From Oxalobacteraceae bacterium OM1 (GTDB lineage Bacteria > Pseudomonadota > Gammaproteobacteria > Burkholderiales > Burkholderiaceae_D), in contig SPQI01000183.1 in NCBI GenBank assembly GCA_004570315.1, forward strand, positions 1-51,540: a DNA stretch of 51,540 nt, read 5' to 3'. The translations under genes and the position numbers were made by a program. Positions 4,428 through 23,331 of this stretch are shown here, piece by piece. The first letter of the stretch is position 1, and every line of letters begins with the position of its first letter. The notes under the pieces are model-generated. The model was given only the letters and a program-made list of their open reading frames with translations, was not told the origin of the DNA and made no database searches.

Positions 4428-4440
4428 TAGATTATTTATG

Positions 4441-4851
4441 ATTTGCGCCGGCTTGGCAAGCGGTTTGCGCAACGCGGCGCAAATGCCACTGTCGGATTTC
4501 TTTTAACTCTGAATTTCTTTCAGCTAAGTCTGAACTGTATGCAGGGACAACATCGATTTGTCCCGTCCCATATCAGCGGGATAGCGAAGGCATGGACGCG
4601 GACTTACCATGTGCTTAGTCGGCGTGCATCATCAGTCCACAATGCTGCTACTGCGTACTACGTAGCAAGTGCAACTTTGACGCCGACTTTGGCAGCGGAT
4701 CGACCAGGCCGCTTTTCCGGGTTATTAAATACTGTATTTTTAGCCAGTGTCGCGGCAAAGCGAGCACTGGAGCGACTTACGGACGATCAAACCGCCGTGC
4801 ATAACGTCAGGCAGCCGCGCATAACGGACGATATTGTCCATTTGGTAACCA
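4441..4851. other. Intergenic junction between backbone and island
   Basis: About 410 bases with no credible gene. Visible pieces are a hairpin GGGACAA-N7-TTGTCCC at 4544-4564, a segment at 4555-4585 that recurs at 6098-6134, and a LexA-like sequence at 4732-4747. No integrase gene or recognisable integrase remnant was found here. Confidence 0.6.
4732..4747. promoter_or_regulatory. LexA-box-like sequence
   Basis: CTGT-N8-CCAG, one mismatch from the consensus CTGT-N8-ACAG, with an AT-rich spacer. It lies about 105 bases before the first cassette junction. LexA boxes control many integron integrase promoters, so this could be a relic of a lost integrase promoter. Chance occurrence is also possible. 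Confidence 0.25.
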
Positions 4852-4858
4852 GTTAGAC
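4852..4858 (+). other. Integron recombination core site (GTTRRRY) before cassette 1
   Basis: GTTAGAC fits the GTTRRRY core at which integron integrases cut. It lies 6 bases before the first cassette ATG, the spacing expected at a cassette boundary. No attC-like stem is visible upstream, so it may be an attI-type site or the edge of a degraded attC. Confidence 0.4.
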
Positions 4859-4863
4859 CTCCT

Positions 4864-5328
4864 ATGGACATCCAAGACCGTCAGGACTGCGAGCGCAACA
4901 TTCGTCGAGTCACGCAGTTGATCGACTCGGGCATCTTCAATCCCGACAACGGTGGCCATCCGCTGCAGCAATCGGCTTTCATTGATCTGATGATTTGCAT
5001 GCGTGATCTGATGCACAAAACAGAGAAGTACACCAAGCGAGTCGACTTTGTTGATGACGTGCTGACGAACAACTACGTCATACGGGACGCCTGTTGCCAC
5101 ATTGACTCCTTTAAGAAAGACTTTGACGGCAACGGAAATCGTGGCGAGTACATAGTGGCGTACGGAAAGTGCAACCTAATGAAGATGGACGACTTCGAGG
5201 CCAAGGGAGAGTACGAAGATGACGTTGCAATCTTCTACGGGCGCAACCGCGTCTACATGCGACGGCACATACTCCGCGCGTTTCACCAAGCACAGGCGCA
5301 ACTCCAGCCTCTGCTTGCTAGGCGTTAG
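4864..5328 (+). CDS. Hypothetical protein, integron cassette 1
   Basis: A 154-residue, charged, soluble protein of unknown function, with no signal peptide or membrane segment. It starts MDIQDRQDCERNIRRVTQLI and ends in a basic, glutamine-rich helix. It fills nearly the whole cassette: the ATG is 12 bases after the upstream core site and the stop codon TAG (5326-5328) abuts the attC, both typical of integron cassettes. It carries no promoter of its own that I can see, and I do not recognise the family. Confidence 0.7.
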   Translation: MDIQDRQDCERNIRRVTQLIDSGIFNPDNGGHPLQQSAFIDLMICMRDLMHKTEKYTKRVDFVDDVLTNNYVIRDACCHIDSFKKDFDGNGNRGEYIVAYGKCNLMKMDDFEAKGEYEDDVAIFYGRNRVYMRRHILRAFHQAQAQLQPLLARR

Positions 5329-5388
5329 GCCTAACCATTCGGTCACGCGGACTTGCCTACGGCAAGCCGCTTACCTCATACGTTGGGC
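5329..5388 (+). other. attC: attC recombination site of cassette 1
   Basis: A 60-base attC. The left core is GCCTAAC (5329-5335, RYYYAAC) and the right core is GTTGGGC (5382-5388, GTTRRRY). Between them is an imperfect hairpin, GCGG-A-CTTGCC / GGCAAG-CCGC, with a 3-base loop and one unpaired A. A single extrahelical base is the hallmark of folded attC sites. Confidence 0.88.
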
Positions 5389-5400
5389 AGCAAAGATCAA

Positions 5401-5757
5401 ATGTCACTATCAGCCTTGATAGATCGGCAGGGTTTGACCTTCAGTGGCCGCGACCTGAGCGTTGGAAATCGAACCCTAAAGATGCCGTACACGATATTGG
5501 ATGCCGGGCGTTTTGCGTCCGGCATCGCTGTCGTTTTCGATTACATGGAGTTCGATAAGTCCGAAAGGTGTGAGAACTTGTGGGCGATCGATCTTGAGGG
5601 CAATCGCGTATGGATCGCCGAAGCTCCCGATGTCCCTGCCAATGCATACGTGAGTCTCATAAGTACACAGCCGCTTAAGGCGTGGAATTTCGCGTGCTAT
5701 ATCTGCACGCTTGAGCCTGAATGCGGAAGGTTGATTGAGGCGGAATTCGCGAAATGA
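5401..5757 (+). CDS. Hypothetical protein, integron cassette 2
   Basis: A 118-residue soluble protein from the ATG at 5401. It contains a beta-rich, aromatic pattern (IAVVFDYMEF, LWAIDLEGNRVWIAEAP, KAWNFACYICTLEPECGRL). The C-terminal FACYICTLEPECG...EAEFAK resembles small hypothetical proteins I associate with cassette arrays, but no function is known to me. It lies 12 bases after the attC of cassette 1 and ends 6 bases before its own attC, in the same orientation as cassette 1. Confidence 0.72.
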   Translation: MSLSALIDRQGLTFSGRDLSVGNRTLKMPYTILDAGRFASGIAVVFDYMEFDKSERCENLWAIDLEGNRVWIAEAPDVPANAYVSLISTQPLKAWNFACYICTLEPECGRLIEAEFAK

Positions 5758-5763
5758 AAAGCC

Positions 5764-5824
5764 GCTCAACATTATCATGCACGCGACATGCGATAGCGCA
5801 CACGCGTGATGACGGACGTTGAAC
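5764..5824 (+). other. attC: attC recombination site of cassette 2
   Basis: A 61-base attC with left core GCTCAAC (5764-5770) and right core GTTGAAC (5818-5824). The inner stem is TCAT-G-CACGCG pairing with CGCGTGATGA, ten base pairs with one unpaired G, and a loop of about 17 bases. Core consensus, length and the single bulged base all fit. Confidence 0.88.
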
Positions 5825-6217
5825 GTCCGGTTCAGAGCAAGGTGACAGGCTGTTGTGGGCCGTTTTGCCCGGTCATTCGGGTTTTGCCAATGTCCGTTTG
5901 TTGAACGTTTTGCGTCATTGAACGCGGCGCCGGACTACTGACCATGGCGTCAAACAAATTGATCGCGAGAGGCGAAGTACCCACGATTAGAACGCGCCCC
6001 TGCCATAGATGCGGTGCAAAGTTCGGCAAGGCTGCAATCGTCGCGCCTGTCTCCGGCAGGGTAGCATCCCAGGATCGTATGATGCTAAACCACTGTGGAT
6101 TTGTACAGGTATGCTCCCATATATGGGGGATAGCCGGAGACAAGAGTCGTTCGATATGATGCGCGCGGCTGTGTCGACAGTGATACAGCGGATTTCCACT
6201 TTACGGTCCCTACATCA
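5825..6217. repeat. Gene-free stretch with direct repeats, candidate transposon end
   Basis: Nearly 400 bases with no credible gene. GTTTTGC recurs at 5862-5868, 5881-5887 and 5907-5913; the first and third copies sit in a longer shared context, CGTTTTGC with GTCATT nearby. GTTGAACG occurs at 5818-5825 and again at 5900-5907. Arrays of short, roughly 20-base-spaced sites are what TnsB-type transposases bind at Tn7-like ends, so this is a candidate left end. A matching inverted end on the other side was not found by eye. A second element at 6098-6134 repeats the 4555-4585 sequence. Confidence 0.35.
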
Positions 6218-7240
6218 ATGGCAACTGCGCGCACCAATACCATTTCTGGTCTTATCGTTCACAAGTTGGTCAAGCAGCGCCAAGGCGATGCCGAGTTTAT
6301 TCCACGTCCGAATGTCGTAGCTGTCACTGATACCGTCCAGCGATTAGTCGACCAAATTCACGCTCTGTACGCTGAGCGACAGAGCAAGGGGTACGGCAAG
6401 TTCGAAGTCGACGAGGACAACTTCCCGATGGCGAAGTATGTCCGCGAGTATTTCAGCGACAAAAGGCTTCCTTTCTATGACCTCAGTGTCGCCATGATGC
6501 GGACACTAAAGCGAACCGCTGACTCCGCGCCTCTTGCCACTGGCGGGTATGTACTCATCGCACACGTCTGTAACGGCGCAAATCATTTCCTACTGGTGGC
6601 GTTGGTCACCGACGTGCTCGGTACGGCAATTACTGAAGAACTCGAGTTCGTTGATAGTAACCACCTTGACATTACTAACGTAAGAGTGGCCGGTCGCATT
6701 GATCTAACTGGGTGGCAAGATGGTGCCGAGCGTTACGTCTCTTTCCTTAAAGGGAAAGGTGAAGTAGCAGACTATTTCAAAGAATTTCTTGGTTGCAACG
6801 ATGTTGTAGCAGCCAACAAAGAAACACAAAAGTTGCTTGTTTGCCTCAATACATTTGCAGAGCAACGGAGACTTGAGCCAAGTGCACGCGACCGCTTACT
6901 CCGTAGTGCCCATGACTGCTGCTTGGAACTTGCCAGTAACCGGCAGCCGATTGATCTAGAGACTCTCTCCAATCGTTTATGGCCGGACGATCCGGCGTTG
7001 ATGCGTGCCGCAATGGCAGACGAAGCCTTGCAACTATCAGACGGTTTCGTGCCGGACAAACGGGCATTGCGTGCATTTGTTAAATTTAGTGCGAAAAGCA
7101 ATTACTGGCGTTTGGAATTCGACCGCCAAGGTTTGCATACCGGCGATATCGATTTCGATAAGGACGCCGGCACCCTTACCCTTAAAAATCTGCCGGCGGA
7201 ACTGCTCGATCAGTTGAGATCGGAAGAGGAACATGAGTAA
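6218..7240 (+). CDS. NdpA/YejK-like nucleoid-associated protein
   Basis: A 340-residue protein, close to E. coli YejK (335). The core aligns by eye with YejK: GGYVLIAHV for the FADGGFVLFCHY strand, then NHLDITNVRVAGRIDLTGW and RYVSFLKGKGEVADYFKEFLG, the most conserved YejK stretch. YejK itself is a housekeeping nucleoid-associated protein, but this copy is on the island, far from a backbone context. Its last 8 bases overlap the next gene, so the two are translationally coupled. A probable role is recognition of DNA or of foreign nucleoid complexes, with the partner as membrane effector; that is inference. Confidence 0.82.
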   Translation: MATARTNTISGLIVHKLVKQRQGDAEFIPRPNVVAVTDTVQRLVDQIHALYAERQSKGYGKFEVDEDNFPMAKYVREYFSDKRLPFYDLSVAMMRTLKRTADSAPLATGGYVLIAHVCNGANHFLLVALVTDVLGTAITEELEFVDSNHLDITNVRVAGRIDLTGWQDGAERYVSFLKGKGEVADYFKEFLGCNDVVAANKETQKLLVCLNTFAEQRRLEPSARDRLLRSAHDCCLELASNRQPIDLETLSNRLWPDDPALMRAAMADEALQLSDGFVPDKRALRAFVKFSAKSNYWRLEFDRQGLHTGDIDFDKDAGTLTLKNLPAELLDQLRSEEEHE

Positions 7241-8438
7241 GTTGGTATTCGATCAGCTTGTTACCTTGTATCGCGCAATTGATTTTGACATTGCCGCGCG
7301 AGAGGGAACGCTGCTGCTCGAGTCGGAAGACATCCGGGGCTTACTGGAGACGGTATTAGCAGATGAGGATGGCGAATATGGGATCGCCATTGCGGAGGGC
7401 GATCCTGATCACCTCCAAGTCGGTCAAACCGTGCGGTTGTTTATCGACAGCCCACGTACTGGCCTCGGTCTTCTTGCCACTGACCTCGCTGGGTTGTTGG
7501 GCATACGTAAGGCCCGCATTGAAGAGCCCCGCCGATACTTCTTGGCCCGTGAGCGCTTTAATAAGGCCGACGCTATCGTGCCCGACAATGTCATTCGATA
7601 TCGCCGGGTATTGGCTTTCATCGGACTGCTGAAAGAGTCGGCGGCCTATCTGGACGAATCAAAGGCAGAACTGATCTACATTGCCGATGGAAAGTTCGAG
7701 ATATCGTTGACGTACTCAGTAGATGACCTAATGAAGGCTGATACTGCGTGTATTGACCGCCTAATCGCCTCAATCGAGAATGACACGCACAAGGAGCAGC
7801 GCCTTTCCATTCTTGGGACGGCTGCGGTTGAAATAGCCCAGTCATTTCCGCCAAACGAGCGCTTTCCAAATCTGCTTGCTCACTTGCCCCAGCTATATGA
7901 GCGTTTCTCAGATGGCTACCGACTTTTTGTATCGAGTTTTTCCTATGAAAAAGTGAAGGACGAGCTCGAAGCAGCCAAAGTCGAATACACAGGCAAGATT
8001 CATAAGGTCTTCACCGACATCCAAAACCAGGTATTGGGGATTCCAGTGGCCACCGTTATCGTGGCCACCCAAATGAAAGCTGCTTCACAAGTCGGGTATG
8101 AATTTTGGGTCAATACCGGCGTGCTGCTTGGCTGCTATGTCTTTGCGGTGTTGATGGGACTGCTCATTTACAATCAAATCAATACGTTGGTCGTACTCGA
8201 ACAAGAGATTGCACGTCAAAAGAATCAGTTCGAAAAAGACCATAAAGACATACTGCAGCGGCTTTCCAGTGTGTTTGCTACTCTGGACAGCCGTCTTCGG
8301 TCACAAAGGTATATCCTGGTTTTTGTTGCATTTATACTTGGCACCGGATTGGCATTGTCGACCGTTGCCTACCTGTCGATAACCAAGCCTGCAAAGGACT
8401 GGGCAAACACCACATTCATACAAAATTGGCTGCCGTAA
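7233..8438 (+). CDS. Membrane protein with coiled coil, partner of the NdpA-like protein
   Basis: A 401-residue protein of no family I recognise. Residues 1-265 are soluble, mixed alpha/beta, with a central LIYIADGKFEISLTYSVDDL stretch. A short hydrophobic run at about 268-280 and a strong membrane helix at about 292-313 follow. Next comes a charged, coiled-coil-like helix (about 320-358, QINTLVVLEQEIARQKNQFE...) and then a final membrane helix at about 359-381. This layout, a cytosolic sensor domain plus membrane helices at the C-terminus, is typical of abortive-infection effectors. The ATG overlaps the end of the NdpA-like gene by 8 bases. Function is inferred only from context. Confidence 0.75.
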   Translation: MSKLVFDQLVTLYRAIDFDIAAREGTLLLESEDIRGLLETVLADEDGEYGIAIAEGDPDHLQVGQTVRLFIDSPRTGLGLLATDLAGLLGIRKARIEEPRRYFLARERFNKADAIVPDNVIRYRRVLAFIGLLKESAAYLDESKAELIYIADGKFEISLTYSVDDLMKADTACIDRLIASIENDTHKEQRLSILGTAAVEIAQSFPPNERFPNLLAHLPQLYERFSDGYRLFVSSFSYEKVKDELEAAKVEYTGKIHKVFTDIQNQVLGIPVATVIVATQMKAASQVGYEFWVNTGVLLGCYVFAVLMGLLIYNQINTLVVLEQEIARQKNQFEKDHKDILQRLSSVFATLDSRLRSQRYILVFVAFILGTGLALSTVAYLSITKPAKDWANTTFIQNWLP

Positions 8439-8600
8439 CGCGTCGTCGTCTCGGACCAACGCGTCAGGGAACGCGTACGTTTCCGACCTAAATCAATATG
8501 CCGCCATTTGACATGCCGTTGCATACCCGCGCCTTCGGTGTAGGTGAACTTACACGTAGGGCCTCCCGCCGAAACACCTGCCTCGGAAAAACCCTTGTGC

Positions 8601-11600
8601 ATGACGAAACTGGGCGCCATCAATTTTGACGACTGCATTCTCGACGCGCTGCGCGACGACCGGCTCGTAGTCTTCGCCGGTGCTGGCGTTTCAATGGGGG
8701 CGCCATCAAATCTGGCCAGTTTTTGGAAGCTGTCCTCGGACATCGCACAAGGAACCGGGCTCGTCCCCAGCGAACCGTTGGATCGATTTCTGGGGCAGCT
8801 GCATCACCGCAACGTCGCCGTTCATGAGCGTGCCTTGCAGCTCCTTTCACTGGAAGGAAGTGCCCCGAACGCCCTACATCAGAATCTGATGCGGCTTTTT
8901 CGGACGGCGGACCGTGTCAAGCTCGTAACCACCAATTTTGATCTGCACTTTGAGACCGCCGCCGATGCCTTGTTTGGTGCTGTTCCCGACGTGTATCGGG
9001 CGCCTGCTCTGCCCCTGGGCTACGACTTTTCTGGCATCGTTCACGTTCATGGAGCCCTGCCACGGCCGCGGGATCTCGTGCTAACGGACGCGGATTTCGG
9101 CCGGGCCTACCTTACCGAGGGTTGGGCACGCCGATTTCTCGTCGATGTCTTCCGCCGCTACACGGTGCTATTCGTTGGCTACAGCCACAACGATGTTGTG
9201 ATGAACTATCTGGCTCGCGCATTGCCGGCTGACAACGTCGCGGGCCGGTTTGCCTTGACGGATGAGGATGGTAGTTGGGAATTGCTAGGTATTACGCCCA
9301 TTCGCTTTGTAAAAGAAACCAGCGCGACCCCATTCAAAGAACTCTATGATGGCGTGCAGCGACTCGCCGAGCGCACCGCACGAGGAGCGCTGGACTGGCA
9401 GTCGCGTCTTGCTGAAATTGGCGGCCGCGCTCCGCCAACGGACGAAGAAGCAATTAGCGAGGTCGAACAAGCGCTGCGCGAAGTGCACACGCTCCGGTTT
9501 CTGCTCAACGTCGCCCGCGATCCGGAATGGCTCCGGTGGCTCAACGGGCGCAAGCATCTCGGTGCTCTCTTTGGCGCTGTTGACCTCGGCGAGCGGGACA
9601 CGCTACTTGCAGGGTGGCTGGCGCAGCACTTCGCGGTCGGGCACCCGAACGAAGTCTTCGAGATCGTTGCGGCGCATGGGCTACGGATGAATCCAGCACT
9701 CTGGTGGTCCATCGGGCGCGAGCTCGGCGTCATGGCGGAGAAACCGCTCGAAGTGTCTGCGCTTAAGCGCTGGATCACCATCCTGCTTGCGAGCGCACCA
9801 GTCGATGCGGATCACCACGTGTTAATGTGGTTGGCTGAGCGCTGCGCGGGCCAGCAGTGTATCGAACTGACGCTCACGATGTTCATGGCGATGAGCGAGC
9901 ATCGGCTCAGCGTCAAACCCGGCTTTGCATGGCCCGATGACGATGAGGGAAGGGGCCGCCGGCTGGACGTAGAGTGCCCACTGCGAGCTGATCACTGGTC
10001 GCTAAACGAAGTCTGGACCAGGCACCTGAAACCGCACTTGTCGCGAGTTGCGCAGCCGCTGTTGGCAGGAGTTGCGTTGCGCCTGGAGAAAATACACGGC
10101 GAATTGACCGCATGGGACAAGGCATCGCGCGAATGGGATCCAGTCAGCTACAGGCGTTCTGCCATCGAACCACATGACCAGGATCAGTATCCAGAGGCTG
10201 TTGACGTCTTGGTCGACGTCGCGCGCGATGCGCTGGAGTGGCTCGCCGCACATTCTCCGGCGCTGCTCGACGCCTGGATCGAGAGGCTGGTGAGCTCGGA
10301 TGCCTCCCTGCTGCGTCGGCTGGCCATACATTCTACAACTGTGCATCCCGAGCGATCGCCTGAAGAACGCCTGAAATGGTTGATAGATCGCTTAGGCCTT
10401 CATGGGCTTTCCGAGCATCACGAAGTCTATCGTGCTGTTGCGCTGAGTTATGGCGCCGCCGCCGAGCCGGCGCGACAGACCGTCGTTGATGCAATCTTGC
10501 GGCACACGCTGGCAGATTCCGAGAAAGTATCTGACAAGGAGCAAACTGCGCGCTCGCACTTCAACTGGCTGTCCTGGCTGCTGGAGGCGAAGCCCGATTG
10601 CGTGCTGGCAGGTGCAGCTTTGGCAGCAATCAAGGCACAGTATCCAGACTGGCGGCCGTCGGATCATCCAGACCTCACTCACTGGATGGGCTCAGTCGGT
10701 TGGGTTGGTTCAGAAAGCCCTTGGACCGTAGAGCAACTCCTCGCCCGGCAGCCTGCCGAACAGCTTGATGACTTGCTAAATTTTCAGGGTAGTCGCTTCG
10801 ATGGGCCAAGCCGCGAAGGCTTGCTGACCAACGCTCGCGAAGCTTGCAAACAGAACATCTGTTGGGCATTTTCGTTGGGGCAGGGTCTAGTCGAACGTGC
10901 ACTATGGTCATCTGACCTATGGCCAGCATTGATCCGGGGACTGCAGGAATCCGAATTGTCGGCGGGCTGGCGTGACTTGCTGACATTCGTTTCTAATCCC
11001 GCGCTGCAATCAGCGCATGCGTACGACATTGCGAATCTGCTTTACGCCTTGGTCAGGGACGGCGGCAAGCCATTTGCGCTCGATTTGCTAGAGCAAGCGA
11101 ACGCCATTGCACTGCCCGCATGGCAAGCCCTGGAAGCCGCGCAGGACGAAGACATTGATAACTGGCTGTCCCGCGCCATCAATCGCCCGGCCGGCGTCAT
11201 CGTTGAGTTTTGGATCAACGGCCTGTCACTGCTTGTGCGCGGTAAGACTGGAGCCGAACGGGTTATGCCTGAGTGCTATCGCCATTGGTTCACTCTGGTA
11301 GTGCAAGACGCGACCATAAAAGGTGGAATGGGGCGTAGTCTGCTTGCCAGTCAAACCGCGTTCCTATTCGGTTTAGACGAAGCATGGACGAGGCAGCATG
11401 TCATTCCGCTGTTCAGCGACCTGGACTGGAAAAAGTTTGCACAAGCATGGGACGGCTTCCTTGTGTGGGGACGGTTGTATCCGGCGCTTGTCGATGCCCT
11501 ATTCCCGGCATTCATTGCCGCGATGCCAAGGCTTGCTGCCGACCTGGGCGACCGTCGCCGGCGCTTCATCGAGTTCTACACTGCGCTCGCCGCATTCCAT

Positions 11601-12113
11601 GTATTGAATCCAACACAGCACTTGCTACCTACGCTTTTTCAACATGGTTCGATGGACGATCGATTGGCGTTTGCATCGCATTTCGGATACTTCCTACGCC
11701 AAATGCAACAGCCAGCCAAACAGCAACTGTGGAGCGGTTGGCTACGTCGCTATTGGCAGGATCGACTGCAGGGGGTGTTTGCTCCCCTAGACGAGGCCGA
11801 AATTCGGACGATGCTGGAGTGGTTGCCATACCTTGGCGATGCATTCCCCGATGCGGTGGCCTTGGCAGTTCGCTGCACTACGATCCGGATCAAGCACAGC
11901 CAAGTTCTACACGAATTGCGTGAGAGCGAATTGGTCACACGCTTTCCCATCGAAACCGCGAAGCTGCTAATTTATCTTGCCGGTTGTACTGTTGACTACC
12001 ATGCCAACGACTTGGCAAAAATCGAGGCGCGCCTGCCTGTGATACCTGTGCAGGTTCGTCGTAGCCTCGACGAGGCATTCGCACGTGCTGGTGTGGTGAG
12101 GAATGTGGAATAG
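8601..12113 (+). CDS. Large SIR2-domain protein, probable anti-phage NADase
   Basis: A 1170-residue protein from the ATG at 8601. The first 240 residues form a SIR2-like domain: the NAD-binding FAGAGVSMGAPS (about 25-36), TNFD (111-114), the catalytic-type His in HVHG (148-151), and FVGYSHNDVVMNYL (191-204). The remaining roughly 900 residues are helical, repeat-like and rich in Leu, Trp and Ala, as in phage-sensing SIR2 effectors of the DSR type and in SIR2-DUF4020 proteins. Such proteins deplete NAD after sensing a phage component and kill the infected cell. It is a single gene, convergent with the transposition operon, consistent with transposon cargo. The frame is also open to a GTG at 8544. 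The NADase role is by family analogy. Confidence 0.85.
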   Translation: MTKLGAINFDDCILDALRDDRLVVFAGAGVSMGAPSNLASFWKLSSDIAQGTGLVPSEPLDRFLGQLHHRNVAVHERALQLLSLEGSAPNALHQNLMRLFRTADRVKLVTTNFDLHFETAADALFGAVPDVYRAPALPLGYDFSGIVHVHGALPRPRDLVLTDADFGRAYLTEGWARRFLVDVFRRYTVLFVGYSHNDVVMNYLARALPADNVAGRFALTDEDGSWELLGITPIRFVKETSATPFKELYDGVQRLAERTARGALDWQSRLAEIGGRAPPTDEEAISEVEQALREVHTLRFLLNVARDPEWLRWLNGRKHLGALFGAVDLGERDTLLAGWLAQHFAVGHPNEVFEIVAAHGLRMNPALWWSIGRELGVMAEKPLEVSALKRWITILLASAPVDADHHVLMWLAERCAGQQCIELTLTMFMAMSEHRLSVKPGFAWPDDDEGRGRRLDVECPLRADHWSLNEVWTRHLKPHLSRVAQPLLAGVALRLEKIHGELTAWDKASREWDPVSYRRSAIEPHDQDQYPEAVDVLVDVARDALEWLAAHSPALLDAWIERLVSSDASLLRRLAIHSTTVHPERSPEERLKWLIDRLGLHGLSEHHEVYRAVALSYGAAAEPARQTVVDAILRHTLADSEKVSDKEQTARSHFNWLSWLLEAKPDCVLAGAALAAIKAQYPDWRPSDHPDLTHWMGSVGWVGSESPWTVEQLLARQPAEQLDDLLNFQGSRFDGPSREGLLTNAREACKQNICWAFSLGQGLVERALWSSDLWPALIRGLQESELSAGWRDLLTFVSNPALQSAHAYDIANLLYALVRDGGKPFALDLLEQANAIALPAWQALEAAQDEDIDNWLSRAINRPAGVIVEFWINGLSLLVRGKTGAERVMPECYRHWFTLVVQDATIKGGMGRSLLASQTAFLFGLDEAWTRQHVIPLFSDLDWKKFAQAWDGFLVWGRLYPALVDALFPAFIAAMPRLAADLGDRRRRFIEFYTALAAFHVLNPTQHLLPTLFQHGSMDDRLAFASHFGYFLRQMQQPAKQQLWSGWLRRYWQDRLQGVFAPLDEAEIRTMLEWLPYLGDAFPDAVALAVRCTTIRIKHSQVLHELRESELVTRFPIETAKLLIYLAGCTVDYHANDLAKIEARLPVIPVQVRRSLDEAFARAGVVRNVE

Positions 12114-12214: not shown

Positions 12215-13087
12215 TCAATCGAACTTCTCTCTCCACGCTTCAAAGTATTTCCTAGCCAACTCCTTCGACTTAGCTTTGCGGACCGTTGAAGACTTTTTGC
12301 ACGTAAGCGCTTTTTCGATAATCCACATTACGTGAAGACGGTCTCTCCTCCCCATTTTCTCAAGCAGCTGCTTATCTGAAGCGTCCGGTGCATCAAGTCC
12401 GATTAACCCTACCAGCGTGGCCATCTCGGACACTGAAAACCGGTGACTGAGTGGCTCAACTCTCATGTAGTCATGGACCAAAGCTGAAAGAACTGCACGC
12501 TGAAATCGAACTTTTCTTTGGAATACTTCCGCTTTTGGATAACTAAATGCGGACGCGGGAAAGTTACGTTGGTCCCCCCGGCAAACGATGCAATGGGCGA
12601 GGGAAGGAACAAGTGTATATCCGCCCCGGCCGCTCAAGATCGATCGGCTGTGATGGAGGTATCGGCCACAGGACCAGCACTTCGTAGGCATATCAATTCC
12701 ATGCGCTTCGCAGACCTCCCAGGCCTTAAAGCGCCATTCCAAACGGAGATATGGAATGCCATCCTCGGAGAAGCACAGAGGGCAGAATCTATACACTGGG
12801 TAACGCAACTCATCGCGCAGAACGAGGGATCGAATTGCTTTCCGCTCTGCGACTCTTCCCAATGTAACTCTCATCAACGAAAAGACGGACAAGTCTAGTC
12901 GCCCGGCCCGAGCAACACGCATAATGTCGGATGCGGAGAGATTCAGGTCTGGATCCGACCGTACATCGATGCCGAACGCAGCATGAAGTTGGCCGTACGA
13001 CAGGTCGTACACTTGGCACACTCTCTGGATCCAGGAGCAAGTGGATTCATGAAGGAATGGAGTGGGAAGCCCAGCAAGATATGTCAT
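12215..13087 (-). CDS. tniQ: TniQ-family transposition protein, second copy
   Basis: A 290-residue TniQ/TnsD-type protein. It opens with GLPTPFLHESTCSWIQRVCQ, the TniQ N-terminal motif in which the element's target-selector domain begins. A zinc-binding region follows: RFCPLCFSEDGIPYLR, then WEVCEAHGIDMPTKCWSCG, giving two CxxC pairs and a Cys/His pair. TniQ proteins link target recognition to the AAA+ regulator. It is the last gene of the tns operon, 8 bases after the first tniQ. It is much shorter than TnsD of Tn7 (about 508), so the C-terminal DNA-recognition part is small or absent. Confidence 0.88.
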   Translation of the reverse strand: MTYLAGLPTPFLHESTCSWIQRVCQVYDLSYGQLHAAFGIDVRSDPDLNLSASDIMRVARAGRLDLSVFSLMRVTLGRVAERKAIRSLVLRDELRYPVYRFCPLCFSEDGIPYLRLEWRFKAWEVCEAHGIDMPTKCWSCGRYLHHSRSILSGRGGYTLVPSLAHCIVCRGDQRNFPASAFSYPKAEVFQRKVRFQRAVLSALVHDYMRVEPLSHRFSVSEMATLVGLIGLDAPDASDKQLLEKMGRRDRLHVMWIIEKALTCKKSSTVRKAKSKELARKYFEAWREKFD

Positions 13088-13095
13088 TCAGGGGA

Positions 13096-14061
13096 TTAGA
13101 AAAGCTGAAGCTGCTGAGGTATGTGGTACTTCCGATGACGCGAAAGGGAAGAACTGCGGCCAAGTCTATGAAACAAAAACGAGACCCAGTAGGCGTCAGT
13201 AGCGTCCAGACTTTCCTTGGCAAGAGATAACAATGCGGGTAGGTGGACTTCTGCAGCAACAGATATGTCCGTGCATTCCTTTTGAAGCAGGCGGCCGAGC
13301 CGCTGGTGAGCGAGCTTGGATATTTTCACGGCAAGCGGCGTCCTTGGAATAGCCTTGGCCTTACTGAAGCTGGCCGCATCTCCCTCAATATCCTTAATGC
13401 CAAAAGCCCAGATAAGTTCGAACAAAGTGCTCAGGCTCACTTGTGAAAGCATCGTGGTAACAGGACACCAAGTTATCGATGAGCTTCCGCCATCAACTCC
13501 GGTCTGCGTTGCTACAAGGCCGGCAACGCTGTACTCAAAGGACCCTTCTCCAATGCTTTGAACCGCAGTATCTGCCCACGCATGTCCGCAGCTACAGGCA
13601 GAAAGCAAGGGACGAGACCAGCGTATTCGCTTCAGGCATCGCGGACAGGAATCAATGAGCGTGCAAGAATGCTGCGTGCAGGCTGTCACGAACGAGAAAT
13701 CCCAAAGAAAGTGCGAAAACCCGTTTTCTCGAATACAAAGTGGGCACAGCTGCGGACGCATGTGGCGTAAGAGGTATAGTCGGCGCAAGGTTTGGTTGCG
13801 CACCCGATAGCAAAGTTTTCCTTCATCAGCGTAGCAGGCAATAAAATGCTGCGCGAGAATTGAATCGGGTACCTGGAAAATTGCAGCCACTGTTGGAACG
13901 TCCTCAGGCAAGACCCGAAGAATGCTTTCTCTCTCAAGGGTTTTGTATAGCCACCTCAAACCACGCAGGTGGTGCATGTTGGACATGCGTAGCAGGTAAC
14001 CCATGAAGCCTTCGTCTGTATATGGAAGCCCCTTGAACGGAAGCGAAACGATGGATTTCAT
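13096..14061 (-). CDS. tniQ: TniQ-family transposition protein, first copy
   Basis: A 321-residue TniQ-like protein. The N-terminus contains GFMGYLLRMSNMHHLRGLRW, and the zinc region reads LCPLCIRENGFSHFLWDFSF, then CTQHSCTLIDSCPRC, then CSCGH. Its ATG overlaps the tnsC stop (ATGA), indicating translational coupling. It differs clearly from the downstream tniQ, so they are not a recent duplication. Two TniQ proteins in one element often mean two target pathways, or one target selector and one adaptor; which is which cannot be told from sequence alone. Confidence 0.86.
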   Translation of the reverse strand: MKSIVSLPFKGLPYTDEGFMGYLLRMSNMHHLRGLRWLYKTLERESILRVLPEDVPTVAAIFQVPDSILAQHFIACYADEGKLCYRVRNQTLRRLYLLRHMRPQLCPLCIRENGFSHFLWDFSFVTACTQHSCTLIDSCPRCLKRIRWSRPLLSACSCGHAWADTAVQSIGEGSFEYSVAGLVATQTGVDGGSSSITWCPVTTMLSQVSLSTLFELIWAFGIKDIEGDAASFSKAKAIPRTPLAVKISKLAHQRLGRLLQKECTDISVAAEVHLPALLSLAKESLDATDAYWVSFLFHRLGRSSSLSRHRKYHIPQQLQLF

Positions 14062-14915
14062 AAAGCGAAGGGGTTAGGCGAACTCGGTTTGTCACCATAG
14101 ACTCTCGCGTGGCCAATCGTAAAGCTAGCCCGGTCTATTTTCGTCTTGCCTGACTCCATCGCCGCTATCGTACTCATGACCAGAATCTGCTTCAGATGGC
14201 GGAGTACGCCATTAGATGATGCGTGAAGTGGCTTGTAGAACTCAGTTGAAATAGGGGAAAGGTCAATTGACGTCACGCCATCCGACAATCGCCTTAAAAG
14301 TCCCACCCATTCCGAATTCCGTTCAAATTCCTTCAGCGTAAAGCTGGCTGGTGCCCGTGAACCCAGTTGGTCGTTCATTTCGCAAAGCGGCTTCAGCTCG
14401 CGAGTGCCCAGCATGACGACCACGATGCCGGCCGCATCGCTAAGCTGCTTTACCCAATCCAGAATGCCGGCAGCCGATAGAGTGCGGTTCCCTCGGCACA
14501 CATGTTGAAATTCGTCCAAGAAGAGAACTTTGACGCACCTGTCACGCAGCGCCTCGATGATGATCGACGTTTGATCATAGAGCGTGGATGCTCGAATAAC
14601 AGACGGGTAGCCAAGTGCCTTGAGCAATTTGCTGACGAAATGTCCCTGTGACGCGTTTGCCTCGGCCGCGATACTGATGCTTCGAATATCGTCACCGAGT
14701 AACTCGGTGCTTGGGATCGCTCTCGAAATGGCTCTGATAAGTGCGGTCTTCCCGCATCCTGGCGGGGCCGTGACGGTGGCTCCAAACGGCATGTCAATCA
14801 TGCTGCTCGTTTCCACGATTTTCAGCACTCCGTTATAGGCCTTCTCGAACAGCGGATGCATAACGATGGTTCCTGATATTTCAGCAACGGCGCGTCTCAT
14901 CTCCTCTTGACCCAC
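14058..14915 (-). CDS. tnsC: TnsC/TniB-like AAA+ ATPase
   Basis: A 285-residue AAA+ ATPase that would bridge the target selector and the transposase. The Walker A is APPGCGKT (about 50-57) and the Walker B is VLFLDEFQH (D134-E135). A sensor-1-like VVVMLGTREL and an arginine-containing LLRRLSDG segment follow. Its size is closer to TniB than to the 555-residue TnsC of Tn7. It starts with a GTG at 14915 behind AAGGAG, 10 bases after tnsB, and overlaps the next gene by 4 bases. Confidence 0.92.
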   Translation of the reverse strand: MGQEEMRRAVAEISGTIVMHPLFEKAYNGVLKIVETSSMIDMPFGATVTAPPGCGKTALIRAISRAIPSTELLGDDIRSISIAAEANASQGHFVSKLLKALGYPSVIRASTLYDQTSIIIEALRDRCVKVLFLDEFQHVCRGNRTLSAAGILDWVKQLSDAAGIVVVMLGTRELKPLCEMNDQLGSRAPASFTLKEFERNSEWVGLLRRLSDGVTSIDLSPISTEFYKPLHASSNGVLRHLKQILVMSTIAAMESGKTKIDRASFTIGHARVYGDKPSSPNPFAL

Positions 14916-14925
14916 AATTGGCTCC

Positions 14926-16902
14926 TTAATCCAAAATAAAGCTGCTGAAGCTTGGCACGTCGTTGATCGCTACGTCGATGTCGCCCTCGGTGATCAACTC
15001 AGTAACGCGATTGGCGAGAGAGGCGCTCGGGCTTTTACTTAACAGCGATTGAGCCGAGGTTAGCGAGCCGAACTTTTTTGCGGCCTCGATGTTCTTCTTG
15101 CCGCGCTTCCCGCTCAAGAATCCATCCCAATAGTCGATCAACTCGCTTTTGCCGCGAATGAGCGTCTCGATTGCGTTACGCGTCCTTAAGCCGTCTTTTA
15201 AGTGGTTGCGTATTGCTTGATGCTGGACAATGGATAGCCGCTGGGTGTATTCCGGATTGCAGCTTTCAACCTGCAGCCAGTGGCCAGTGATCGGATCCTG
15301 GACATAGACGAACCCCAGGTTCTCCGGGTGGAATTTCACTTGGGTCTTGAAGCTGTGCTTAACCTGGCGCCGTATGCCCTGCAGCTCCCGGGAGTTGTAG
15401 CGAAGGTGATTCATTACTATCCCTTCATTCCCCACAGTAAGCGACTTGTTCAATGCGCCGACAAGATCGATATCGGACAGCGAGCTGGGGAGAAGTGGAG
15501 GAGGCATTCGTTCGAACCCCTCCCGGAAGAGTTCATACGGCTCAGTCAGCGTTCTTGTGCTCGCCTCGAATGGAATTACGTCAACAAAACACTTCAACAG
15601 ACCAAGACTCAACTGGCTGAGCGTTATGCATGCCGTCTGACGCGGATCGGGTGGAAGGTAGTTGGACTGTGGCTTGTGAACTCGCCCACTGGCAGGTAGA
15701 TACAGGCCCATATGACCAAGCACTCTCTCAACGGAAGGCTTTAACCAAGGCTGACGGACCGCGCAGTACTGAATGTCCGTATTGAGTTGCCATGCCGCTA
15801 GTTTGAACTGGCGTGAGTGGAACTCAAGTCCATTGTCGACCACGAGCAGTTCAGGCAAACCATAACCTAGCCAATCGTGGCTCAGTGTCGGGTTCGCTTC
15901 GCGATATTGGTCTTTGGGAGTGACTGCGATTTTCAGTGCGTTCAGCGTTGGTCCAACTCCGGTTCCCCAGAAGCTGATAAAGAACGACAACACATAACCC
16001 GAGTAAGCATCAATGACTACCGTGATAGTGGGCCGGCCCAGCGGAAGACCTGATTGGTCACAAATAACGACGACATCCAATAAGGTGTGATCAATCTCCA
16101 GGCGCTCCAGTACCCTCGTCGTCGTCACACCGGAGATGGAATAACGCCACTTGTTCCTTGCGTATGCCGGCCCATATCGAGCGACGTCAATGTAGTATGG
16201 GCCGACATCGTTTTTGACACGATTGACAGTCGCGAGGCTTACTTTGCAAGGTCCAATCACTTCTCCCTCTATTACCGAAGCTCGCTCTAGCGCTCGATTA
16301 ATCAATAAGTGTGAGCGTGTGAGTGGATGCCGGTCTCGAGTGAAGTATTCGCGTTTTAAGACGTCGAAAATTAAGGATTTAACTCTGGGGTGAATAGTGC
16401 TTCTACGCCGCTTCTGATAGTTAGCCGTGACCAAAGCCGAAGCCTGCATTCCAGATTGCTCGTATGCCTTCCACCAAGAAATGACGGTCGAGTCACTTGG
16501 GACCTTCTCTTTTCTCCGATCGGCAACCTTTACGACCACAGGCTTGATTAGCCGCCGCTGACCTCGAGTTACACCCGCCTTTTGAAGACAACGAATATAG
16601 TCGAGCTTACGTTCGATCTCGTCTTGGAAGCGCTGCGGCAGTGAATCAAGGCTAGGGAAAAGTTTGGGAAGGTCATGTCCAGTTACGCTGGACGGCTTCG
16701 CCGCATCAACTTCGTGCCCACGAAAAACGACTAGTTTCCCGTTATTGATGTCCGAAAAGACCTTCGATATCTTCCAGTTGTATAGCCTTCCCGAAATGGG
16801 GTCCTCGAATTGCACACTCTGATCAGGCAACTGCCGACGGAACTCAAGTAGCTGCTGGCCATTCCGCAAGACCAAGCCAATCGAGAAAGAGAATGTAGGC
16901 AT
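14926..16902 (-). CDS. tnsB: TnsB-like DDE transposase
   Basis: A 658-residue transposase of the Mu/Tn7 retroviral-integrase superfamily. The catalytic triad is visible: D271 (RLEIDHTLLD), D356 (LLVVDNGLEFHS) and E392 (KPSVERVLG). An N-terminal DNA-binding region (about 80-240) with helix-turn-helix segments precedes it, and a Mu-type C-terminal beta-barrel region follows. The ATG at 16902 is preceded by GGAG. It starts inside the end of tnsA, with a 59-base overlap. It acts with TnsA to cut and join transposon ends. Confidence 0.94.
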   Translation of the reverse strand: MPTFSFSIGLVLRNGQQLLEFRRQLPDQSVQFEDPISGRLYNWKISKVFSDINNGKLVVFRGHEVDAAKPSSVTGHDLPKLFPSLDSLPQRFQDEIERKLDYIRCLQKAGVTRGQRRLIKPVVVKVADRRKEKVPSDSTVISWWKAYEQSGMQASALVTANYQKRRRSTIHPRVKSLIFDVLKREYFTRDRHPLTRSHLLINRALERASVIEGEVIGPCKVSLATVNRVKNDVGPYYIDVARYGPAYARNKWRYSISGVTTTRVLERLEIDHTLLDVVVICDQSGLPLGRPTITVVIDAYSGYVLSFFISFWGTGVGPTLNALKIAVTPKDQYREANPTLSHDWLGYGLPELLVVDNGLEFHSRQFKLAAWQLNTDIQYCAVRQPWLKPSVERVLGHMGLYLPASGRVHKPQSNYLPPDPRQTACITLSQLSLGLLKCFVDVIPFEASTRTLTEPYELFREGFERMPPPLLPSSLSDIDLVGALNKSLTVGNEGIVMNHLRYNSRELQGIRRQVKHSFKTQVKFHPENLGFVYVQDPITGHWLQVESCNPEYTQRLSIVQHQAIRNHLKDGLRTRNAIETLIRGKSELIDYWDGFLSGKRGKKNIEAAKKFGSLTSAQSLLSKSPSASLANRVTELITEGDIDVAINDVPSFSSFILD

Positions 16903-17539
16903 GTTGCATCTCCAATTGTGGAATTGAAACGGTGACGGTCGGATTGATATCGGAAAGAGAAGGAATGGACAGCGAATGGCGACCGATGAGGTGAAGCACA
17001 TCGTTCAATGGGATGCCAGTACCTAACAAGAGCTCTGCCAGCGATGCGGATCCTCTTCGTTCTGCTAAGAATGCAACGCAGCTACCGAGCGCGGTATGCG
17101 GGATCGCACCTCTGGTATAGCGGAGGATAGTGGCGGCATTGGTCGCTATTGATTTGCCGAGCTCCTTGTCCGTACATACGGAAAAGGGGACGCCTGAACT
17201 TCCAAGAACCGTCGCCGCTGCGCTTAAGGTTGGCTGGTGCTTCGGGACAAATGCCTTCGGCTTCACCTCAATAACGACACGGCTTCCGTCGGTAAAATTG
17301 CAAATAAAGTCGGGCGTATATTGCCGCTCCTGGCCTTCATGCAAATAGCTGATTTTGAAGGGCTGGTGGATAACGCTATGCAGAAAGGGAAAGACAAGCG
17401 CGCATTGAATGAAGCGACGCTCAAGTTGCGACTCATATTCGATTCCCCAACTTTGAAGCCAGGAGCACGAAACGATCCCAACAGATCGATGTGGCGAACG
17501 CGAGACAATGCGGCGGGCCGGTTGGCCTGGATTGGGCAA
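16844..17539 (-). CDS. tnsA: TnsA-like endonuclease
   Basis: A 231-residue protein with the TnsA N-terminal nuclease fold: ESQLE (about 36-40), YTPDF with D77, and IEVKPK with E91 and K93, matching the E/D/ExK active site. TnsA cuts the 5' ends so that Tn7-like elements move by cut-and-paste and do not form cointegrates. The start is a TTG at 17539 behind a strong AAGGAGG, and the alignment with TnsA begins there. The C-terminal domain is shorter than in Tn7 TnsA (273). It is the first gene of the operon. Confidence 0.9.
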   Translation of the reverse strand: MPNPGQPARRIVSRSPHRSVGIVSCSWLQSWGIEYESQLERRFIQCALVFPFLHSVIHQPFKISYLHEGQERQYTPDFICNFTDGSRVVIEVKPKAFVPKHQPTLSAAATVLGSSGVPFSVCTDKELGKSIATNAATILRYTRGAIPHTALGSCVAFLAERRGSASLAELLLGTGIPLNDVLHLIGRHSLSIPSLSDINPTVTVSIPQLEMQHAYILFLDWLGLAEWPAAT

Positions 17540-17551
17540 AATTTCCTCCTT

Positions 17552-17586
17552 CGCAGTTGCAAACGAAGCCCGATTTGCAAATTGCG
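17552..17586. promoter_or_regulatory. Inverted repeat in the tnsA leader
   Basis: CGCAGTTGCAAA, a 10-base spacer, then TTTGCAAATTGCG: arms of 12-13 bases, matching except for one mismatch and one extra base. It sits directly upstream of the tnsA ribosome binding site. It could be an operator for the neighbouring XRE regulator, or an inner transposase-binding site. Confidence 0.45.
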
Positions 17587-17825
17587 GTCAATTGTTTTTT
17601 ATAGGCGAGTGAAGTGCAGACGCAGATGTGCCTGCGAAAGAAATCGCCTACGAAAAGACGAGCGAACGGGGTTGACGTGAGGAGAAAGGGTGGTGATACT
17701 GAGGTTTCCAGGCACTCAGTGGCGCCAGCCACTTCTCCCTACGCGCAGGCTAATGGCCTGTGTGCTAGGGGGAGCTCATTACATTGCCTTCTATATTTTT
17801 CTCCTTTAATTAATCTAGGCAGCTG

Positions 17826-18179
17826 TCAATCGGGACTCAATATGGCATTGATGGCTCTGACCTGAGTTGGCTGAAGTTGTTTTAAGCCGGTCGCTAACTT
17901 CAGTAGCATTTCCAGCTGCATAGGCGTTGCCTCGACTGCAAAAGGACCGAGCATCTCGGTAGCAGCCACGCACTGTTTTAATTGGCGCAGTTCTTCATCA
18001 GTGAGGTCGAGGTTATTCCTTAAGCTCTCGTAAAACGCTTCGTTTTGCGGCGGAGCTTTTTTACCTTGCTCAAGTGCGGAAAGATATGACGCTCCCACCC
18101 TTAGCCGAGTGGCCAGGGACTTTTGCTGGGTTCCGCGCGATTCCCGGAGTGAGCGCAGTTTGATTGAGAAAGGGGTCAT
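17826..18179 (-). CDS. XRE-family transcriptional regulator
   Basis: A 117-residue protein from the ATG at 18179. The N-terminal helix-turn-helix reads LRSLRESRGTQQKSLATRL, then VGASYLSALEQGKKAPPQN, a classic XRE/Cro fold. The C-terminal 50 residues are helical and probably dimerise. It lies 286 bases upstream of tnsA on the same strand. XRE regulators accompany many Tn7-like elements and set their activity, so control of the tns operon is a fair inference. An open frame extends 5 codons upstream to a TTG. Confidence 0.83.
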   Translation of the reverse strand: MTPFSIKLRSLRESRGTQQKSLATRLRVGASYLSALEQGKKAPPQNEAFYESLRNNLDLTDEELRQLKQCVAATEMLGPFAVEATPMQLEMLLKLATGLKQLQPTQVRAINAILSPD

Positions 18180-18194
18180 GATGTAGCTTCGCAA

Positions 18195-18559
18195 TACCCG
18201 GCAATCTATGTGAGTTTCCGTGGCTCGTCAATAAACCTTTTAAAATCATAAACTTACATTAAACAATGTGTGGTGTATGGTTTGTGGCAGCGAGCGAGCG
18301 AGTATCTACAAGATACAAAGGGCAATTGCTTTGCTCGCAACAGTGATGCGATTCTTTTAATCTAGCAGCGGGCAAGGCATTTCTACTTACTTATAACTGA
18401 AGCTTTAGCAGCAAAACCTTCCTGTGAGTAGCAGATCACTACCATGCGTAGCGTCCGTGCAGCGCATCGAGCTGTGTGGTACCACATGCATCCTGGGACT
18501 GACTAACTCCAAATGCAAAATCGCCCGACCGCCAGGCGTCTCTTTGACGTACGTCACCC
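18195..18559. other. Divergent intergenic region with inverted repeats
   Basis: About 365 bases between the XRE gene and the OmpA-like gene. It is AT-rich near the XRE start. It holds GAGC/CGAG-type iterations at 18290-18302, a perfect GTATCT-ACA-AGATAC at 18302-18316, and the 12-base palindrome TGTGGTACCACA at 18475-18486. Sites for XRE autoregulation or the transposon right end may lie here. A short stretch at about 18451-18470 resembles the dispersed repeat at 20947. Confidence 0.5.
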
Positions 18560-20023
18560 GTGAGGTTTGAATTGACATCGTCTTCTTTACCCCCCGACCG
18601 CCTTTCCGCGCTGCAGTCCAAGCTAGAACTCTTGCGCAAGGCCGCCTCTGTCGGGTTTCTGATCATGGTCAGTGTTGGTGGCAGCGTGCTGCTGACCTAT
18701 TTTGCACGCCACAGCGTCGGGTCGGGCGGCCTTTCAGTCGCCGATGCGATCGCGCTAGCGCTATTGGCGATGGCGTTCGGCTGGGTCGTCGGCGTCGCGC
18801 TCGGCTACGGGACTCTTGCTGCTTACCCTCTGGTGCGTTTGATTACGCGATGTCTGGCTCCAGTGCTTTCTAGGTGGGAGAAGTTCCGAATCAAGCGCAG
18901 GCACCAGAAGCTTGCCGCGACGTGGGAAGTGACGGCGATAGGGCCGCCGGTTCAATTGGAGTGGGATGCGGGGAATGAATTGATGTTGGTAATTGGATCC
19001 GCGGCACTGGCGTTCTTAGGCGTCATCGCGTATTACGCAGCGTGGGAAGGGCGGCTGTTGATCCTTGCTATGGTGGTGGCCGGTGGATGGCTGTCCATTT
19101 TTGCGTTTGGCACGTTGAGACCGGTTTACTGTCGTTGGCCGCGCTCGCAAACGCACGGCTGGTTCGACGTTTGGTTTGAACAGCTGCCGCGGCGCCTTCA
19201 AATTATCATCGTAAACTGTGTCGTGGTGTCCGGAATCCTATTGCTTGTAGGTGGCACGCTTGAAGACAGCGCGATGGTTGCAGCTGGCTTTCGCAAGCAC
19301 GACGTCTCGATCTATGTCGGCAAGGACGCGTTTGCCAAGTTTAATGACACGGCGCAGCGCCTGGGACTGACTGTTAACGCTTGCGAACCTATCACTTCCG
19401 ATACCGACATCATCCATCATGTTGACATTCTATGGCACCAGATAGGTACCAACGGGCTGTTGCGCTATCCGAGCCAACCGCTGCTCCGTGCGCAGGATGC
19501 CAGTCTGCCGCGTGCGCAGTTTCGCATCGAAGTGAGAAACGACCAATTGCAAGTGGTTGACGAACAAGCGACGCCATCGCGTTGCAGTGAGCTGTCGACG
19601 CTTGCTCTATTTGACGGCAAATTTAATATCCGCCCGCAAAGCGAACTTGTATTAATGCAAGAACTTGCTTGGTTAGCGCACATTCCCGCGAACCACTATG
19701 TGGAAGTCGTGGTGCATGGCGCGCCAGCCACGGCATCGCCATCCGAAGTGTCCCGCAAGACCATCCTGCAGGCGGCGGCGCTGCGAACGTGGCTAGCCAA
19801 CCGCCTTCAGATCGATTCCAAACGCATCGTGGGGACCGGTCTTGGCGATCAATTTCCAAAGCAGGCGTGTACTGCGGTGCCTCCGCTTGTCAGGCAGCGC
19901 TGTATAAACAGCTCACGGCGCGTTGAAATCCGTGTCCGACCTGAGGCTGAACGGCCCGATCAAGGCGCGTCGGATATGGCGCCAAACGATGGAGTACCAA
20001 CAAATCCCGGCGCGTTGGGTTAG
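18560..20023 (+). CDS. Inner-membrane protein with C-terminal OmpA-like domain
   Basis: A 487-residue protein starting with a GTG. Membrane helices lie at about 32-50, 62-95, 142-185 and 212-235, after which the chain is outside the membrane. The last 120 residues look OmpA/MotB-like: FDGKFNIRPQSELVLMQELA, then VEVVVHGAPATASP, AALRTWLANRLQIDSKRIVG and NSSRRVEIRVRP, which match the peptidoglycan-binding fold. This gives a membrane-anchored, wall-binding protein. It is divergent from the XRE gene and lies on the island; its role is unknown. OmpA/MotB-like proteins also occur in defence systems such as Zorya, but no ZorA-like partner is seen. Confidence 0.7.
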   Translation: MRFELTSSSLPPDRLSALQSKLELLRKAASVGFLIMVSVGGSVLLTYFARHSVGSGGLSVADAIALALLAMAFGWVVGVALGYGTLAAYPLVRLITRCLAPVLSRWEKFRIKRRHQKLAATWEVTAIGPPVQLEWDAGNELMLVIGSAALAFLGVIAYYAAWEGRLLILAMVVAGGWLSIFAFGTLRPVYCRWPRSQTHGWFDVWFEQLPRRLQIIIVNCVVVSGILLLVGGTLEDSAMVAAGFRKHDVSIYVGKDAFAKFNDTAQRLGLTVNACEPITSDTDIIHHVDILWHQIGTNGLLRYPSQPLLRAQDASLPRAQFRIEVRNDQLQVVDEQATPSRCSELSTLALFDGKFNIRPQSELVLMQELAWLAHIPANHYVEVVVHGAPATASPSEVSRKTILQAAALRTWLANRLQIDSKRIVGTGLGDQFPKQACTAVPPLVRQRCINSSRRVEIRVRPEAERPDQGASDMAPNDGVPTNPGALG

Positions 20024-20079
20024 ATCCGCCAACAGATACCGCTCTGTTTGAGAAATTTTGGAATCTTCAACAAGACAAT

Positions 20080-20376
20080 GTGAAGTGTTCACATGTCTCG
20101 GGTTCGTTCTTCGGGTTCGTATGGGGGCAGCTCAACAGCGAGGTTATTCACCAGGACGGGGACACATTTGATGTTTGGTCGATATTGCCAGTGAATCTCA
20201 GTATGGAAATCATCTCAGCCGGTTTGGAAGGGGAACAGCTAAGAAAATACACACAGAGTGTTGACGTAAATATGCAAGAATTAACTTCCTGGAGGGCATG
20301 TGCGCCTGATGCGTCATTGCAGACCGGATCGGCGGGCGTACTCGCCATAGCCTTGCTATCAGACACATCACTGTGA
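20080..20376 (+). CDS. Hypothetical protein
   Basis: A possible 98-residue protein from a GTG. It is unusually serine/leucine mixed and has no recognised domain. It lies between the OmpA-like gene and the exonuclease gene on the same strand, ending 18 bases before the latter, so it may be the middle gene of an operon. Coding status is uncertain because neither the start nor a ribosome binding site is convincing. Confidence 0.35.
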   Translation: MKCSHVSGSFFGFVWGQLNSEVIHQDGDTFDVWSILPVNLSMEIISAGLEGEQLRKYTQSVDVNMQELTSWRACAPDASLQTGSAGVLAIALLSDTSL

Positions 20377-20394
20377 AGAAGAAAGGGGAGGTAG

Positions 20395-20886: not shown

Positions 20887-20946
20887 AACGTACCCCCCGG
20901 AGAAGCAGTTCCGGATACAGGTAATGACGCCTCGCACACCGGAACG

Positions 20947-21010
20947 GTCAACGTCCGCTGTGCAGCGCATTGCAGATGCACAGGGGAGGGCAGAAACCGG
21001 CCAGAAGCAG
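20947..21010 (+). repeat. Dispersed intergenic repeat, copy A
   Basis: About 64 bases similar to 31270-31333. The 22 bases at 20952-20973 (from CGTCCGCTGTGCAG to the end of GCATTGC) are identical in the two copies, and the tail AAACCGGCCA also matches. It is not coding. The family is unknown; it may be a host-wide intergenic repeat. Confidence 0.7.
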
Positions 21011-21076
21011 CCGTTCACGAAGCTGTGTCTGCAGTGTCTTCCGTCACGCGTCCACGAGCAACACCAAGCAAACCGG

Positions 21077-21970: not shown

Positions 21971-22078
21971 TGCTGAATTTTTCTCACAACCTCATCAAGA
22001 TTGTACGGGTTTATCCCGGCTATGCGCGCAGGCGAGAATTTGGGCCATGACAAAAGCATCTGGCAAAGGCACAAATTC

Positions 22079-23302: not shown

Positions 23303-23331
23303 TTTTTTATCAGCCGACAGCGAGTATCTCA

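Follow-up and report, generated by a model that had tools for sequence, protein, structure and literature searches.

A likely integron remnant with two attC cassettes beside an attI region in Oxalobacteraceae bacterium OM1

IntegronFinder 2.0 classifies a cluster of at least two attC sites that lacks an integrase as a CALIN, and its attI detection covers class 1 integrons only, according to the part of its description used here (PMC9024848). Arrays left behind after integrase loss are described for Xanthomonas integrons with an inactivated intI, in the sections of that study drawn upon here (PMC12444791). In one survey, 10% of the Tn7-like transposons carried whole or partial integrons, according to the part of it used here (PMC8649781). 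Among the papers listed for Noviherbaspirillum and integrons, no title concerned a locus of the kind described below.

The locus lies near one end of the window, which is the whole 51,540-nt stretch that was analyzed, and was very probably the attI end of a chromosomal integron that survived the loss of its integrase gene. On this reading it represents ordinary integron decay, the well-preserved ruin of a system whose kind is already known.

attC sites and cassette genes

Two attC sites were located on the forward strand: attC1 at 5329–5388 (60 nt, GCCTAAC...GTTGGGC) and attC2 at 5764–5824 (61 nt, GCTCAAC...GTTGAAC). The sequence bore out the RYYYAAC/GTTRRRY cores, the lengths of 60 and 61 nt and the common strand that had been claimed for them. 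Each cassette comprised one ORF, as the original prediction had it, and the two ORFs (4864–5328 and 5401–5757) stopped 0 and 6 nt before attC1 and attC2, respectively. The bottom strands of attC1 and attC2 were predicted to fold into single hairpins of −27.9 and −30.5 kcal/mol, and attC2 had the cleaner predicted stem. The single unpaired stem base reported for each site was a simplification, since both predicted bottom-strand folds contained two one-base bulges, to which attC1 added a mismatch and two internal loops and attC2 a 2x1 loop. In an integron, IntI recombines attC as a bottom-strand hairpin; for attC1 and attC2, such hairpins are computed predictions.

The bare core pattern occurred at 21 places in the 4.7-Mb genome vs. 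37 places for a reversed control. The reversed pattern was thus the commoner one, and by itself the core pattern carries no evidential weight. A filtered scan demanded paired cores, a single hairpin, a length of 50–75 nt and a folding energy of −0.40 kcal/mol per base or lower, this energy limit having been chosen after attC1 and attC2 had been seen. In the window, the scan returned exactly attC1 and attC2 on the forward strand and one site on the reverse strand. In 60 sequences as long as the window, generated by a first-order Markov model, it returned one site in total, and none of them contained two.

A covariance model (R1) was built from 24 training attC sites, with the window excluded. 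Contigs C67 and C178 of the same genome contributed eight and one sites, and eight loci of other genomes supplied the others (three each from L059, L060, and L062; two from L087; one each from L057, L063, L064, and L086). As a strict core scan of the integrons of other genomes had yielded few sites, candidates were taken from a relaxed scan and the training sites were picked by eye. Overlapping alternatives were left out before the model was built, as were the last site of C178 (6806–6874), the candidates of L058, L061, L071, and L090, and extra candidates from L057 and L087. The R1 consensus contained the core pairs and a second stem with one unpaired base, and both-sided changes were found in 7 of 13 pairs. 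R1 is biased toward resident attC sites, which helped attC3 (below) more than attC1 and attC2, and its E-values are rough. With the filters off, R1 scored attC1 at 30.5 bits (E 3.4e-4) and attC2 at 27.7 bits (E 1.3e-3) in the window, where the best unrelated match reached 10.5 bits. Both sites thus stood clear of the background in the window, the point on which the original prediction had staked its claim. In the genome-wide search, which scored the best 150 of 5824 candidates, attC1 had an E-value of 0.031, and attC2 was not among the hits listed. No Rfam family matched within the window at gathering thresholds, and a tRNA search of the window found none.

Further along the same strand, at 8506–8562, R1 detected a third site, attC3, with worn cores (ATTTGAC/GTAGGGC), at 29.1 bits and E 6.7e-4 in the window and E 0.060 genome-wide. 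Over 47 bp, it had 83% identity with the attC that comes first in the C67 integron, itself an R1 training site. An array of one-strand cassettes ending in attC, one mark of an integron, is present with attC1, attC2, and attC3. That these are chance hairpins between ordinary genes draws on the commonness of the bare core pattern and is refuted, as far as sequence allows, by the R1 scores, by the filtered scan set against the Markov sequences and by the fact that attC3 is homologous to a resident attC; we regard its probability as negligible. The original prediction had passed over attC3, the attI region, the putative intI relic, and the full intI genes and attC hits of the genome.

The gene of cassette 1 (4864–5328, forward strand) encoded 154 aa. 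Among 398 other genomes of the order, its sole relative was found in G116 (44% identity), and a further one (36%) was found on an Acinetobacter plasmid. In G116, an attC overlapped the gene at its 3′ end, with another two attC sites behind it; in the 9.1-kb stretch, bounded by a contig end, no IntI relative was found. R1 detected no attC in the 3.7 kb examined at the Acinetobacter gene. This suggested that the gene occurs both in cassettes and outside integrons, and is not tied to them. R74-D-A-x-C-H79 was invariant in all three homologues in the alignment, and the window protein had nine residues fewer than the other two just ahead of R-x4-H. HEPN ribonucleases have the motif R-x4-6-H, and the cassette 1 protein contains such a motif. 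For a HEPN-type protein this is no more than a hint, and Pfam gave no HEPN match for it or for its two homologues. A single-sequence structure model (pLDDT 45.7) was too poor for a fold search.

The gene of cassette 2 was listed from TTG 5353; with ATG 5401 taken as its start, it encoded 118 aa (5401–5757, forward strand). The protein had no family match in Pfam, PADLOC, or NCBIfam. A 31% match covering 63% of it was found on a Sulfurovum plasmid. Its structure model, likewise from the single sequence, had a pLDDT of 43.8 and was too poor for a fold search. A weak match in G125 (E 2.1e-4), the only other one among 399 genomes, was taken as chance because that ORF has a glycine-cleavage-H domain and tblastn did not reproduce the match. 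No relative of either cassette protein was confirmed in viral contigs. The suggestion that the two proteins could be related to defense or toxins found no backing, as neither matched PADLOC or NCBIfam models and Pfam gave weak matches below the cut-off for cassette 1 and none for cassette 2. A better defense candidate is the pair of genes that lies between attC2 and attC3.

attI region and putative intI relic

Immediately ahead of cassette 1, positions 4705–4856 of the window were aligned by BLAST with C67:9513–9362, with 127 of 152 positions identical (84%). This C67 segment belongs to the same genome and directly precedes a full intI, and by this homology we took the window segment as an attI region on the forward strand, with the core GTTAGAC at 4850–4856. 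The array as originally delimited started at 4852, within this core. In the alignment, the attI regions of the window, C67, and loci L057–L060 all had AGTTA at their ends. The shared sequence extended to AGTTAG in four of the six regions, those of the window, C67, Noviherbaspirillum massiliense (L057), and N. aerium (L060), and only as far as AGTTA in Herbaspirillum sp. ST 5-3 (L059) and a MAG (L058). An attI site of the kind that stands beside intI, another mark of an integron, is present by homology.

In the presumed intI promoter region, a CTG-N10-CAG motif was found at 4732–4747. The motif occurred in seven of the seven intI/attI regions that were compared, those of the window, C67, C178, and L057–L060, against a background of 0.35 per kb across the window. 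We take this spacing to be that of a LexA box, and the role of LexA is putative.

On the reverse strand, upstream of the attI region, lay a candidate intI relic, derived from the 5′ part of the gene (4561–4706, or about 4535–4706 by gapped alignment, with frame-breaking gaps). In a BLAST search of six loci, 4561–4619 matched the 5′ part of the intact C67 intI with 49 of 61 positions identical (E 3e-8). The BLAST match covers 4561–4619 only, and the outer limits were set by aligning the window with C67 and four further intI/attI regions. The candidate relic had no continuous reading frame, and its best tblastn piece was 11 residues. The remainder of intI was gone, and the window lacks the full intI gene, for a tyrosine recombinase with the IntI-specific region, that marks an integron. 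Further left, the DNA preceding a gene that we take to be hemP-like, common to several relatives in the genus, stopped at about 4466.

The claim that no integrase is within reach held insofar as no intact IntI exceeded the cut-off on the window's contig (C1); it had missed the probable intI remains directly upstream. A tyrosine-recombinase ORF at 30604–31230 of the window (208 aa) was a generic Phage_integrase and scored 20.9 bits against the IntI model, whose cut-off is 265. A piece at G000:C41:7067–6846 appeared closely similar to this ORF by eye.

Neighboring genes and integron parts elsewhere

A segment of about 50 bp on the forward strand (5818–5867) began at the crossover point of attC2 and recurred at the distal ends of further arrays in the genome. 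It was matched by BLAST at C67:3480–3443, C178:6866–6912, and C41:7602–7558, and more weakly on C142 (L094:2436–2487). As these loci had mostly been fetched for holding integron parts, a count of GTTGAAYGTCC is the fairer measure: it occurred at five places in the genome, four of them at attC sites seen by the model (C1, C41, C142, and C178) and one, on C2, without such a site. In two relatives from the genus (G011 and G009), R1 found no attC ahead of the segment at E ≤ 1. A match to the segment was present in 5 of 294 family genomes, this one included, and none was found in plasmids. The segment may be an ancestral attI flank or a repeat that served as a target; a cassette start was also considered.

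The span between attC2 and attC3 was no clean cassette, starting with the shared segment and with DNA matched in G004, where the 134-bp match is intergenic. It contained two genes on the forward strand. The first (6218–7240) encoded a DS1_1-like nucleoid-associated protein of the NA37/YejK type (PF04245, E 6e-78), and the second (7233–8438) encoded a protein resembling DS1_2. In the DS-1 of NCBIfam, too, a YejK/NA37 gene comes before the DS1_2 gene, whereas both window proteins scored far below the equivalog cut-offs (62.6 bits vs. 330 for DS1_1 and 80.6 bits vs. 315 for DS1_2). Defense genes have reportedly been found in integrons by Kieffer et al. and by Darracq et al. The YejK domain was newly validated in defense by DefensePredictor, in the part of that work used here (PMC13092281), and the system in question is probably DS-1.

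Behind attC3, a forward-strand gene at 8601–12113 encoded a Dsr1-like SIR2-domain protein (SIR2_2 and DUF4020 in Pfam; Dsr1 models in PADLOC and NCBIfam, the latter below the cut-off). ATG 8601, 39 nt behind attC3, is a likelier start than GTG 8544, which would lie inside attC3. R1 found no attC behind this gene in the window.

Next to it, a Tn7-like module in the order tniQ, tniQ, tnsC, tnsB, and tnsA occupied 12215–17539 on the reverse strand. TniQ was recognized twice by Pfam, TniB/AAA and TnsA were over the cut-off, and PADLOC detected TnsB and TnsC; rve and Mu C-terminal matches were below the cut-off. A comparison of 4440–6230 with 17540–18560 for transposon ends gave no repeats above the shuffled level. 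Nine ORFs of the right flank (18560–29828) were sought beside the hemP-like gene in the stretches of five genus relatives and none was present there, so the insertion was not bounded on the right.

Searches for intI and for similar attC sites elsewhere in the genome, which the original prediction had proposed, succeeded on both counts. Two full-length intI genes were found, on C67 (434.5 bits) and C178 (420.4 bits; cut-off 265), and IntI fragments were found on C13, C41, C67, and C405. R1 gave at least 23 attC hits on nine contigs at E ≤ 0.05 and at least 30 on 13 contigs at E ≤ 10, both counts being lower bounds since the best 150 first-look candidates per genome were scored. Among the 30 hits, 12 were on C67 and 9 were training sites. 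Hits at E ≤ 0.05, many of them at scattered places, came from 11 of the 15 genus genomes, this one included. Together with the two intI genes, this indicated that the window integron is one of several in an integron-rich genus.

Two other arrays were observed along the way. Contig C11 (L023) contained another attC-like pair at 5427–5506 (23.5 bits) and 5859–5930 (by cores and fold only), and no match on C11 was among the IntI hits listed for the genome. In G011 (L046 2054–3607 and 3773–4540), five consecutive attC sites of 41–48 bits adjoined a tyrosine recombinase, 28% identical to IntI, at the position expected for intI.

Origin of the locus and comparison with known systems

The following course of events is proposed. 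An intI once stood at the left, reading leftward and probably under SOS regulation, and IntI would have placed cassettes of one gene each into the attI core (4850–4856). Most of intI would then have been deleted, with about 150 bp left, and the array would have been frozen with two canonical-attC cassettes kept beside attI. The worn attC3, about 2.7 kb further on, may belong to an older cassette or array piece with the DS-1-like gene pair. We infer the order of events, the loss of activity, the regulation by SOS and whatever function the cassette proteins may have. Several points weigh against the survival of an attI end: the putative intI relic depends on one 61-bp match and an alignment and has no frame, the genome-wide E-values of attC1 and attC3 were weak with attC2 missing from the hits listed, and the cores of attC3 are broken.

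Three other explanations were considered. The cassettes might have been inserted off target at a secondary site, of the attG type named in the part of one report used here (PMC12901181), and never have stood beside attI or an integrase. Dispersed cassettes are plausible given the many scattered attC hits in the genus; however, the 152-bp attI region with its core at the cassette boundary, the LexA-type site and the candidate intI relic directly upstream make this origin highly improbable, and the attI homology largely refutes it. The platform might instead be alive, the window attI being used by an IntI supplied in trans from C67 or C178. The window and C67 attI regions share 84% identity and the core, both integrases are full length, and the cores and stems of attC1 and attC2 are intact; on the other side stand the worn attC3 and the greater stability of Xanthomonas arrays after intI loss, as stated in the sections of that study drawn upon (PMC12444791). 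We considered such a live platform unlikely from these sequence features. The broader proposal that several attI platforms are run by few integrases, and that integrons past decay can still serve to store cassettes through IntI in trans, was judged slightly less likely still.

The third explanation, that the remnant was moved here as cargo of a Tn7-like transposon, is compatible with the loss of intI from a chromosomal integron. The tniQ-tniQ-tnsC-tnsB-tnsA genes are nearby, Tn7 itself also carries an integron, and the carriage rate among the Tn7-like transposons of the survey (PMC8649781) points the same way, but the flanks showed no end repeats above shuffles. Transport by the transposon is thus a real possibility that we hold somewhat doubtful. 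If the module is an element, its cargo would comprise defense-like genes and perhaps the integron remnant.

The decay of a chromosomal integron down to its attI end remained the preferred reading, and the locus can be compared with four known systems on this basis. It resembles a CALIN as defined in the part of the IntegronFinder 2.0 description used here (PMC9024848) in having at least two attC sites, by our own model and not that of IntegronFinder, and no nearby IntI, and differs from it in its attI region and putative intI relic. Of the two labels in the original prediction, CALIN is therefore formally right and hides attI, and the orphan end of an integron is the apt one, as the attI region and an apparent intI fragment remain. 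A finder blind to attI would label the locus a CALIN, and here the attI region and intI relic directly reveal one way in which such clusters may come about. With two intact integrases, an orphan attI 84% identical to that of C67 and many contigs with attC, this genome is a natural case for the question of service in trans.

The partial integron near tns and defense-like genes is shared with integron-carrying Tn7-like transposons of the survey (PMC8649781), but no transposon ends were found at the window locus. As in the Xanthomonas integrons with an inactivated intI, an array was left after integrase loss. The window differs from them, as far as the sections used describe them (PMC12444791), in its neighbors, a gene taken as hemP-like and the Tn7-like module instead of ilvD, and it has two clean cassettes and one worn attC in a genome with two intact intI genes. 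The integron of C67 and those with the nearest intI genes, in N. massiliense, N. aerium, and Herbaspirillum sp. ST 5-3, share with the window the attI region, the LexA-type site and the attC type of attC3. They differ from it in that intI is at least largely intact there and that attC1 and attC2 of the window are unlike their resident attC sites.
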